NCBI RefSeq assembly: GCF_000421105.1
Contig: NZ_ATWF01000001.1
Span: 1,747,407-1,811,406, forward strand
Reading direction: 5' to 3'
Source: Limisalsivibrio acetivorans
GTDB taxonomy: Bacteria; Chrysiogenota; Deferribacteres; Deferribacterales; Geovibrionaceae
Length of the DNA: 64,000 nt
Below the pieces are notes generated by a model. It was given only the letters and a program-made list of their open reading frames with translations. It ran no database searches and had not been told where the DNA came from. Position numbers and translations under genes: made by a program. Positions 4,159 through 29,772 of the stretch are shown one piece after another; position 1 is the stretch's first letter, and every line of letters starts with the position of its first letter.

Positions 4159-5346
4159 TTACCTGTCGATCTCACCGAGTACGACATCGTTCGTACCGAT
4201 GATTGCAACGAGGTCTGCAAGCATGTGTCCTTCTGCCATATGGTTAAGAACGCCGAGGTTTATGAAGGAGGGAGCACGTATCTTGAGCCTGTAGGGTCTT
4301 TCTTCCCCTTCGCTCACGATATAGAAACCGAGCTCACCCTTGGGAGCCTCAATACCCTGATAGGTTTCACCCTTCGGGGGTTTGAAACCTTTGGAGATGA
4401 GGTAGAAACGTCTGATGAGGGATTCCATCCTCTCGTAAACGTCCTCATGCTTGGGCATTGAAAGCCTGGGGTCATCGGTCATAACCTCGCCCTCGGGAAG
4501 GTTTGCAAGAGCCTGTTCAACGATCCTGTTGGACTCGCGCAATTCCTTTATACGCACCTTGTAGCGTGCATAGGTATCACCTTCGGGCTGTGTAGGAACT
4601 TCGAAATCGAATTTATCGTAGCAGCAGTAGCCTTCGTCCCTTCTGAGGTCGAAGTCGATACCGGCGCCTCTCATGAGGGGACCACTGGTACCGTAGTCCA
4701 TAGCGTCCTCTGCATTGAGGATACCGATGCCGATGGTTCTGCCTTTCCATATTCTGTTGTTTGTAAGAAGCCTCTCGTAGGTGTCTATAAGACTGGGGAA
4801 TTCCTTGATAAAGGATTCTGCCAGCTCAAAGAACTCCTCGGGCATATCCTGACGGATACCGCCTATGCGGATCCAGGATGATGTCATCCTCTGCCCTGTG
4901 GCGCACTCGAACATATCGAGAACCCTTTCACGCTCACGGAATGCGTAGATGAAGACTGTCATCGCACCGATATCGAGGGCGTGGGTGGCGATCCATACGA
5001 GGTGGCTCACTATTCTTGAGAGCTCTGTGAGGATAACCCTGAGATAGTCCCCTCTCTCGGGTATCTCAACGTTGAAGAATTTTTCAACGGCGAGACAGTA
5101 CGCAAGGTTATTTGAAAGGGGTGAGAGGTAGTCGAGCCTGTCGGTAAGAGGTATGAACTGATGATAGGTTCTGTTTTCCGCAAGCTTCTCCGTACCCCTG
5201 TGCAGGTATCCCACATCGGGATCAACTTTCACAATAGTCTCGCCGTCAAGATCGACAACGAGCCTGAGAACACCGTGAGTACTGGGGTGCTGAGGCCCCA
5301 TATTCACCGTGACTACTTCGGATACTTTGTTCTTTATATCTTCCAT
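4159..5346 (-). CDS. nuoD: NADH-quinone oxidoreductase subunit D
   Basis: 49-kDa-type subunit of complex I that forms part of the quinone-binding pocket. It has the family N-terminus NMGPQHPSTHGVLR and DVGYLHRGTEKL, and the C-terminus runs to VLGEIDR as is usual. The start is placed at the ATG at 5346 (MEDIKNKV), which follows GGAGAAGGAA; an in-frame TTG at 5358 exists but has no better ribosome site. It is encoded separately from nuoC, with a 20-base gap to the nuoC stop. About 395 aa, normal for the family. Confidence 0.96.
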   Translation of the reverse strand: MEDIKNKVSEVVTVNMGPQHPSTHGVLRLVVDLDGETIVKVDPDVGYLHRGTEKLAENRTYHQFIPLTDRLDYLSPLSNNLAYCLAVEKFFNVEIPERGDYLRVILTELSRIVSHLVWIATHALDIGAMTVFIYAFRERERVLDMFECATGQRMTSSWIRIGGIRQDMPEEFFELAESFIKEFPSLIDTYERLLTNNRIWKGRTIGIGILNAEDAMDYGTSGPLMRGAGIDFDLRRDEGYCCYDKFDFEVPTQPEGDTYARYKVRIKELRESNRIVEQALANLPEGEVMTDDPRLSMPKHEDVYERMESLIRRFYLISKGFKPPKGETYQGIEAPKGELGFYIVSEGEERPYRLKIRAPSFINLGVLNHMAEGHMLADLVAIIGTNDVVLGEIDR

Positions 5347-26531: not shown

Positions 26532-27313
26532 CGAAAGTAAGTACAGTCATACCCGTATACAACCGCCCCCTCCACATTCGTGATGCCGTTGAGACAGTTC
26601 TCGCCCAGCATTACAAAGATAACGAGATAATCGTTGTGGATGATGCCTCCGATGCAGGTGTATACCGCTCCCTCAAGCCCTATCTCCCCCTCCTGCGCTA
26701 CATCAGGCTCGACAGGAACTCCGGTGTAAGCGCAGCAAGGAATGCCGGCATAGTCGAGGCAAATGGTGAATACATCGCCTTCCTCGATTCCGATGACCTC
26801 TGGCTCCCCTTCAAGCTCAGGAATCAGATACCCCTCATGGAGCAGGAGGGTACCGCCATCTCCCATACGAACGAGTTCTGGTTCCGAAAGGACCGCTTCA
26901 TCAATCAGGGTAATAAGTTCAAACGATACGGAGGCTTTATATTCGACAAGATCCTTGATATCTGCCGGATCAGCCCTTCATCCCTCTGTGTTCGGGCGGA
27001 TGCCTTCAGGCGATGTGGGATGTTCAATGAGGATATGCGAGTTTGCGAGGACTACGAATTCTTCCTTCGCATCTGTGCAAAAGAAAAAGTTTCCTACCTT
27101 GAACTTCCTGCGGTTATTAAAAGAGCTGTAACAAATGATCAACTTTCCACCACCATCAAACACATAGAATCCATACGCTTACTTGCACTTCTCAATTTTT
27201 TAAACCATAATGGGGAATTGCCGAGCTCATTAAAGCGCAAGGCTATGCAAGAGGTTAACCGCAAGTGGGGCATCGTAAGGTCGGGCATATCGAAGGGTAT
27301 GACGGCATCTTAG
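26528..27313 (+). CDS. Glycosyltransferase family 2, C-terminus formed by repeat DNA
   Basis: Predicted inverting GT-A glycosyltransferase (261 aa). VSTVIPVYNRPLHIRDAVET and VVDDASDAGVYRS at the N-terminus, and the metal-binding DxD region AFLDSDDLW around residue 83. The last 11 residues or so (from about KWGIVRSG) are encoded by the first copy of the 82-bp repeat array, so the native end may have been replaced. TTG start in a TTGA overlap with the Lrp gene. Confidence 0.88.
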   Translation: MTKVSTVIPVYNRPLHIRDAVETVLAQHYKDNEIIVVDDASDAGVYRSLKPYLPLLRYIRLDRNSGVSAARNAGIVEANGEYIAFLDSDDLWLPFKLRNQIPLMEQEGTAISHTNEFWFRKDRFINQGNKFKRYGGFIFDKILDICRISPSSLCVRADAFRRCGMFNEDMRVCEDYEFFLRICAKEKVSYLELPAVIKRAVTNDQLSTTIKHIESIRLLALLNFLNHNGELPSSLKRKAMQEVNRKWGIVRSGISKGMTAS

Positions 27314-27624
27314 GGAGTCCGGGCATCTTGGCGGATCGGCGGGTGCGAAGGTTTTCGTAGGGTCGGGCATATCGAAGGCTATGACGGCATCTTAGGAAGT
27401 CCGGGCATCTTGGTGGATCGGCGGGTGCGGAGGTTTTCTTAAGGTCGGGCATACTAAAGGGTATGACGGCATCTTAGGGAGTCCGGGCATCTTGGCGGAT
27501 CGGCGAGTGCGAAGGTTTTCGTAGGGTCGGGCATATCGAAGGCTATGACGGCATCTTAGGGAGTCCGGGCATCTTGGCGGATCAGCGGGTGCGAAGGTTT
27601 TCGTAGGGTCGGGTGTCTCGAAAT
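27279..27624. repeat. Tandem array of 82-bp repeats
   Basis: Four full copies beginning at 27279, 27361, 27443 and 27525, each exactly 82 bases and differing at only a few positions, plus an 18-base partial copy at 27607. Each unit contains three related sub-motifs of the form GGGCATnT...GG. 82 is not a multiple of 3, so no frame repeats. There are no spacers, so it is not CRISPR. The rest of this 506-base gene-free stretch (27625-27819) is AT-rich; only the promoter region of the following gene is expected there and no other structure stands out. Confidence 0.95.
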
Positions 27625-27819
27625 AGAAGGCCTCTTGCAAAGCGAATTAAAACAACTTGTGATGCTACTCTATTTTCTCTGGCTAGCTTTCTCAGAAACT
27701 CAGCCTCCGCCACCGTCAACAGCAGGCTTTGCGGAGAAAATAATTATACTTATCAGAGCTTAACAAAAAGAGCTTTCGGCCGATTAGTATAGGGAGAAAT
27801 CCCGGGTATTGGTAAGGTT

Positions 27820-29772
27820 ATGAAAAGATTAGGTATTATTGCAGCTGTGCTGCTCTCTGTTTCATGTGCAACAACTGGCGTTAAAAATGACGCATCAGAT
27901 AAAGCTCCCCAAGCGGAGCCTGTAAAACAGGTTTCCTCTGATAATGAGACCGAGCAGAGGGCCGAGATAGAGATTGAGTTCCCTGAGTTCACATTCCTCG
28001 GAGAGGAGTTAAGGAACAGGGAGCTGGACTACGCCCTCCTTGAACCGGGCAAGCCCGACTTCAGTATAGAGAATATCACCCACGACCGCTACGACTACGA
28101 TGAGATCCCACTCGTGATGAACAGCCGCTTCGACTACTACGTGAAGCGCTTCGCCGAGGATATACCTAATGTTTTCCAGAAATGGCTCGAACGCTCAAAC
28201 CGCTATCTTTATCTTGTTAAAGAAATCCTCCGCCGTGAGGGTGTGCCGGACGAGCTGGCTTACCTCCCCTTCACCGAAAGCGGATTCAACCCCACTGCAC
28301 GCTCACGAGCCGGCGCAAGCGGCATGTGGCAGTTCATGAGGGGCACTGGCAAGGTCTACGGACTGGACGATAACTTCTGGATGGATGAACGCAGGGACTT
28401 CGAAAAAGCCACCACAGCTGCCGCAAGGCATCTTCGTGATCTGCATGAAGACCTTGGCGACTGGTACCTCGCCATGGCCGCCTATAACGCCGGCATGGGG
28501 AAGGTTCTACGTGCCATCCGCAGATACGGCACCAGAGACTACTACAAACTCGTACGCTACCGTTACCTTAAGCGTGAAACTAAGGACTACGTGCCCAAAT
28601 ACATGGCTCAGCGTTACCTTTTCTGCAACTACAAGCAATTTGGATTTGAAACCCCCGTGGAAGAACCGCTGAACTTCCGTAAGGTAAAGGTAAACTCCCA
28701 GGCCAACATGTACGTTATCGCAAAGCTGGCCGGTGTGGACTACGATGTCCTTACTGATCTCAACCCCGAACTCAAAACCCCCGTAACACCACCCATGGAT
28801 GAATACTACATCCGCGTGCCCTACGGAACCGAAGAAAAAACACAGGAACAGATCGCAAAAATGAGCCCCGAAGAGCTCCTTCAATACAGGGTATACTACG
28901 CAAAAAGGGGGCAGCGACTAAGCACCATAGCACGAAAGTTCAACATGCCGGTTGAGGACATTCAGGCGGCAAACGGGATATACTACAACAGAATAGTGGT
29001 AAGCACCCCCCTGTTCATCCCTGTACTAGAACATTTCGATCCCGAACTTAACCGCAACTTCGTAAAGGATCTCAAGAGATACAACCCCAGGGTACACACC
29101 GTACGCCGTGGGGACACTATGTACGGCATTGCCCATAAATACGGCCTCTCCCTGTACGAGCTGATGTCCATGAACAGGAATATCAACCCCCGAAGGATCC
29201 GCCCCGGACAGGCTGTAATAGTATCAGTGGACTACAAAAGGCCCAAAAAGCACTACGTACCATCCAAAAAGAGCTACAACTACACAGCCTCAAAAAAGAA
29301 CGTGGACGGTAAAAAGAAGGTTCACAGGGTCAGAAGCGGTGAGAATCTCTGGAATATCGCCAGAGCCTATGGAACCTCCGTAAGCTCCATAAAGAGCCTG
29401 AACGGCCTTGCTGGCAACACCATCAAGCCCGGCGAAACCCTCGTTATCGCAAGCACAAAGGACTCAGCACCCAAGACAGTTGTGAACCACACCGTAAGAA
29501 GGGGTGAGAGCCTTTGGGATATCGCCACCGCCTACGGAACAACCGTAAACGACATAAAACAGCAGAACGGGCTTCGTACAAACACTATACAGCCGGGTCA
29601 AAAGCTGAATGTTAAGGGTAACTCCATAAAGCAGAGGATGCACACCGTTCGAAGGGGGGATTCCCTTTGGGAGATAGCCCAGCGCTACGGAACAACTATC
29701 AGCGCCATACGCAGGGCAAACAGACTGCAGAGCAACACGATACAGCCCGGAAGCGTGCTCGTCATAGACTAA
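27820..29772 (+). CDS. Membrane-bound lytic murein transglycosylase D-like lipoprotein with five LysM domains
   Basis: Cleaves peptidoglycan glycan strands in the periplasm (650 aa). Lipoprotein signal with lipobox LSVSC. SLT domain about residues 130-250: catalytic Glu in LPFTESGFNPTARSRAGASG, plus GMWQFM and MAAYNAGMGKV. LysM repeats start near residues 363, 426, 504, 560 and 606 (each with the HTVRRGDSLWEIA-type opening). MltD of E. coli has fewer LysM units and is about 450 aa, so this is an enlarged cell-wall-binding version. Its end overlaps convergent coaE by 4 bases. Confidence 0.92.
   Translation: MKRLGIIAAVLLSVSCATTGVKNDASDKAPQAEPVKQVSSDNETEQRAEIEIEFPEFTFLGEELRNRELDYALLEPGKPDFSIENITHDRYDYDEIPLVMNSRFDYYVKRFAEDIPNVFQKWLERSNRYLYLVKEILRREGVPDELAYLPFTESGFNPTARSRAGASGMWQFMRGTGKVYGLDDNFWMDERRDFEKATTAAARHLRDLHEDLGDWYLAMAAYNAGMGKVLRAIRRYGTRDYYKLVRYRYLKRETKDYVPKYMAQRYLFCNYKQFGFETPVEEPLNFRKVKVNSQANMYVIAKLAGVDYDVLTDLNPELKTPVTPPMDEYYIRVPYGTEEKTQEQIAKMSPEELLQYRVYYAKRGQRLSTIARKFNMPVEDIQAANGIYYNRIVVSTPLFIPVLEHFDPELNRNFVKDLKRYNPRVHTVRRGDTMYGIAHKYGLSLYELMSMNRNINPRRIRPGQAVIVSVDYKRPKKHYVPSKKSYNYTASKKNVDGKKKVHRVRSGENLWNIARAYGTSVSSIKSLNGLAGNTIKPGETLVIASTKDSAPKTVVNHTVRRGESLWDIATAYGTTVNDIKQQNGLRTNTIQPGQKLNVKGNSIKQRMHTVRRGDSLWEIAQRYGTTISAIRRANRLQSNTIQPGSVLVID

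Follow-up and report, generated by a model that had tools for sequence, protein, structure and literature searches.

The MIRU of mycobacteria are intergenic tandem repeats that are dispersed at many loci and may touch stop codons. Some integrative elements enter the 3' end of a gene and restore it. Of 88 Yersinia pestis VNTRs, 10 are reported to run over an ORF's stop codon; according to that study, a change in copy number at these loci should matter little for the ORF, and such loci varied little (PMC3689786).

The array described here lies in a window of 64,000 nucleotides from Limisalsivibrio acetivorans, across the stop codon of a gene for a GT2 family glycosyltransferase. It is an ordinary local bacterial minisatellite of a known class, seen here in one strain, with 4.2 contiguous tandem copies of 82 bp, 91% matches, and a stop codon within the repeat. 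Its one unusual point is that the end of the GT2 gene appears to have been preserved by the repeat rather than rewritten. Like the MIRU, the array is built of tandem units, each tens of bases long, that lie between neighboring genes on one strand, and it touches a stop codon; its unit, however, occurs at one locus, whereas MIRU are dispersed at many. Likewise, the integrative elements that restore a 3' end share with it a gene tail at both borders, which here reads IVRSGISK in copy 1 and FVGSGVSK followed by a stop in copy 5; however, no recombinase was seen, no element was found elsewhere, and the unit is a tandem one of 82 bp. Such an element is not indicated: of its features, the tail at both borders is present, while the ORFs that touch the stretch, other than the flanking genes, are overlap frames of 31–82 aa. 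The array is of the same kind as the stop-overlapping VNTRs of Y. pestis, with which it shares head-to-tail units, a stop codon inside the repeat, and an ORF that stays readable upon copy change. In contrast to the units of 1–60 bp reported there, the unit here measures 82 bp, and the GT2 array has a copy of the gene tail at both ends and is known from one strain (PMC3689786). A literature search brought up no description that we recognized as closer than these VNTRs, which is not proof of absence.

Structure and occurrence of the array

The array extends over 27273–27622 and comprises four 82-bp copies and a partial copy of 13–22 bp. TRF delimited it at 27273–27613, with a period of 82, 4.2 copies, 91% matches, and a score of 591. 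Within the array, 236/259 bases were identical at lag 82, 166/177 at lag 164, and 92/95 at lag 246, the identity at lag 164 exceeding that at lag 82. The array is also the top lag-82 stretch of the window (224 of 246 bases identical), and the runner-up 246-base stretch outside it, at lags of 40–300, reached 126 matches within the LysM repeats encoded by the gene that follows. TRF and the lag identities thus bear out the earlier note, made from the sequence alone, which had described four contiguous near-identical 82-bp copies and a partial one. The span it had given, 27279–27624, holds a real array but misses the true start by about 6 bases, and the three GGGCATnT motifs that it had counted per unit amount to two exact motifs and one CGGCATCT in each of copies 1, 2, and 4, and to a single exact motif plus CGGCATCT in copy 3.

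Table 1 Features of the GT2 locus, in window coordinates
Feature	Position	Strand	Remark
GT2 family glycosyltransferase gene, 261 aa	26528–27313	+	ends in array copy 1
IVRSGISK codons	27272–27295	+	conserved orthologous tail in copy 1; from alignment with 19 orthologues
Repeat copy 1, 82 bp	27273–27354	+	encodes GT2 C terminus and stop
GMTAS-stop codons	27296–27313	+	sole array-specific part of the GT2 end
Repeat copy 2	27355–27436	+	type B (unit site 6 is G, site 25 is C)
Repeat copy 3	27437–27518	+	type A (unit site 6 is A, site 25 is G); the most diverged of the four
Repeat copy 4	27519–27600	+	type B
Partial copy 5	27601–27622	+	limited to the gene-tail portion of the unit
TAG after copy 5, in gene phase	27624–27626	+	probable former GT2 stop (inference)
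Remainder of enlarged spacer	27627–27819	.	nothing recognized
MltD-like lytic transglycosylase gene, SLT and LysM domains	27820–29772	+	Pfam; same neighbor in relatives

Eleven sites vary among the four full copies. Unit sites 6 and 25 alternate in the order A-B-A-B along the array, and the remaining variable sites are private to copy 2, 3, or 4. This variation, together with the position of the array inside a 2.38-Mb contig of a three-contig assembly, makes it very improbable that the repeat is an assembly artefact, which the earlier note had named as a possible refutation. The number of copies in the assembly could still be wrong.

When the genome was searched for other arrays of the unit, as the earlier note had proposed, the unit was found in one place only at a significant E value. 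The 11 other genome matches cover 15–22 bases and are at chance level, which argues against a dispersed repeat family of the MIRU or REP type. No match was obtained at E 0.001 in 58 other genomes, the 59 genomes in all containing no genus mate or second strain. Among 49 other genomes of the phylum, searched at E 0.01, G014, which belongs to the same order, gave a single match of 29 bases at 86% (E 0.0056), which was judged to be due to chance. At blastn sensitivity, neither plasmids nor phages contained a match to the unit, and the viral contigs lacked any exact 30-base match. It is very improbable that the 82-bp unit represents, now or in the past, a minute insertion sequence aimed at the conserved 3' codons, a mobile minisatellite whose own copy of these codons would spare the protein.

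Two arrays with a period of at least 60 and at least three copies were present in a 400-kb sample of the genome, so mid-size arrays are not unique to the GT2 locus. One of them (L063, approximately 4200–4700) is a CRISPR-like array in which a repeat of about 28 bp (TTTCTAAGCTGCCTGTGCGGCAGTGAAC) recurs unchanged at 60-bp intervals, with unique spacers. The other (L057, 7287–7667) is a dispersed repeat element with the core GTAACGGAAGTAAGCGGAGCGAAGGCTTTGCC, present there as three tandem copies of 129 bp with 98% matches; the element, which is sometimes tandem, has 36 genome matches at up to three mismatches, none of them in the window, and its reversed control has 0. For the GT2 array itself, a CRISPR array was rejected, as the whole 82-bp unit is conserved and there are no unique spacers.

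The conserved tail of the glycosyltransferase

The GT2 protein matches Pfam PF00535 (E 1.9e-30), and its C terminus reads ...RKWGIVRSGISKGMTAS. Its stop codon, TAG at 27311–27313, lies inside copy 1, as the earlier note had placed it; the residues encoded within the array number 13 (27272–27310) and not about 11. A search over 59 genomes (our own and 58 others) gave a GT2 match at E 1e-10 in 52 of them. Loci were retrieved for 20 GT2-bearing genomes, our own among them, and the 19 orthologues from the others were aligned; identity to the same-order orthologues is mostly 46–57%. A scan of genome contigs returned four distant GT2 relatives and no close one. TRF detected no array at the 19 orthologue loci and gave one unrelated row.

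At the columns of IVRSGISK, the aligned orthologues end in IVKSGLIK, IVQSGIKR, IVKKGIDK, IVASGLSK, and similar sequences, with weaker versions such as IISYRVKN and IISPFI. Of the 96,584 8-mers that the window yields when translated in six frames, IVRSGISK scored highest against the orthologue columns, and it ranked first with the profile of all 19 orthologues as well as with that of the 11 same-family ones. Seventeen of the 19 orthologues stop 0–2 residues past the last tail column, and the other two, at L016 and L028, extend 6 and 8 residues past it. In the orthologue at L016 (same-family genome G006), an in-frame TAG also lies about 20 codons ahead of the conserved end; either the gene is disrupted or the sequence contains an error.

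These alignments bear on the view of the earlier note that the array rewrote the gene end, its repeat DNA making the C-terminal residues. The stop in copy 1 fits this view, as does GMTAS, which is specific to the array and without counterpart in most orthologues. However, orthologues without an array share the IVRSGISK-type tail, so only GMTAS is new, and the claim is contradicted for the remaining eight of the 13 residues. Homologues with the same ending and no array, which the earlier note had itself named as counterevidence, thus exist for most of the claim in the form of IVxSG-type tails. Rewriting is therefore mostly wrong as a description, and we consider it very unlikely as the origin of the gene end. 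The repeat unit rather holds gene-tail sequence, and the direction of events is closer to the reverse of rewriting. Even GMTAS could be a native GT2 tail, because 2/19 orthologue tails run 6–8 residues longer.

The far end of the array and its origin

Each 82-bp unit consists of the last ~8 codons of the gene (~24 bp) and ~58 bp of other sequence. Partial copy 5 begins with 13 exact bases (27601–27613) and continues with nine bases (27614–27622), of which 6/9 match copies 1, 2, and 4 in register and 3/9 match copy 3, with no clear match further on. In the phase of the gene, copy 5 reads FVGSGVSK and is followed immediately by TAG. When the flanks are joined, that is, the gene just before copy 1 and copy 5, the result is ...QEVNRKWGIVGSGVSK-stop, also written ...RKWGIVGSGVSK-stop, or ...IVGSGVSK-stop. 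As judged from the alignment, this is the ending of most orthologues, so the TAG is probably the former GT2 stop, for which the evidence is moderate.

This step leans on a short, degraded copy. A match of at least 6/9 to the nine-base segment is found at 1.2% of the positions in the window; when the 9-mer was slid over the downstream DNA, at least 6/9 was reached at 5/198 positions, the real one included. Outside the array, four 8-mers of the window equal or beat FVGSGVSK under the 19-orthologue profile and eight do so under the same-family profile, whereas none equals or beats IVGSGVSK, which has the native first residue.

Overall, we consider it likely that the locus is a local, single-locus minisatellite that grew on the 3' end of the GT2 gene, with a tail-bearing unit, a former stop at 27624–27626, and a doubling of pairs. 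The gene would once have terminated at that TAG, and a 58-bp stretch would have come to sit with a copy of the tail on either side. The resulting unit may then have doubled to give an A-B pair, whose members are told apart by unit sites 6 and 25, and the 164-bp pair may have doubled again to ABAB by replication slippage or unequal recombination. This passage from unit to pair to doubled pair is, we infer, the simplest reading of the differences between copies. The copies after copy 1 would be neutral spacer, because translation ends in copy 1.

A plain tandem duplication, in which GMTAS is native, 82 bp of tail and 3' flank were duplicated in place, and the last copy decayed or was deleted, is possible but distinctly less probable. 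It requires no foreign segment, the edge copies of tandem arrays often decay, and the longer tails of 2/19 orthologues agree with it. However, the 58-bp part is missing past copy 5, where 13–14 of 60 bases agree in register, as expected by chance, and an in-phase TAG is located just where 17/19 orthologues stop.

With the tail at both borders and translation ending in copy 1, the sequence implies that GT2 would keep a near-native C terminus at any number of units, zero included. The earlier note had remarked that 82 is 1 mod 3, which is true as arithmetic but is not why copy number spares the gene; copy number leaves the gene alone because the stop is in the first copy. The locus offers a small, clear case of a tandem array across a stop codon without damage to the protein, harmless because each unit brings the tail of the gene with it, and it cautions against calling residues "repeat-derived" merely for being encoded within a repeat. 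Should its copy number vary, the locus could be used as a marker for strain typing. On its own, its significance is small.

The enlarged spacer and its RNA and coding potential

An AsnC-like gene precedes GT2 at 19/19 loci, and an MltD-like gene follows it at 10/11 same-family loci and at 1/8 of the others; at the eleventh same-family locus, L016, the contig ends soon after the GT2 stop. The gap between GT2 and the MltD-like gene is 506 bp here versus 63–97 bp at the 10 same-family loci, a range obtained with the lipoprotein-like start for L017 and L024; the first start codon gives 11 and 23 at these two loci. The 506 bp are made up of 300 bp of array past the stop and a further 206 bp, which have no other significant match in the genome. 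Against the orthologue loci, these 206 bp gave two short matches, one of 26 bases (E 0.003) and one of 40 bases (E 0.13). The likely sole physical effect of the array is a longer, G-rich untranslated spacer ahead of the MltD-like gene.

The enlarged gap raises the idea that the array is a regulatory spacer, or a functional RNA, that alters expression of the MltD-like gene, and the folding energy of the array is low relative to plain shuffles (MFE z −3.67). Because the repeat is tandem, the control for folding must be tandem as well, and 7/60 tandem arrays built from a shuffled unit with equal divergence folded at least as well; the fold signal was dropped on this account. In addition, no Rfam family matched the window at gathering scores, promoter and terminator matches were at shuffle level, and neither strict nor loose G-quadruplex patterns occurred. 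A functional RNA or regulatory spacer is very unlikely, and there is no sign of a structured RNA or a new coding function and no evidence for a small RNA, which the earlier note had suggested looking for. Besides the flanking genes, the ORFs touching the stretch are antisense or overlap frames of 31–82 aa, which look like by-products of the repeat. The longest, an 82-aa open frame on the minus strand (window 27392–27640), is left by the array and is probably such a by-product too.
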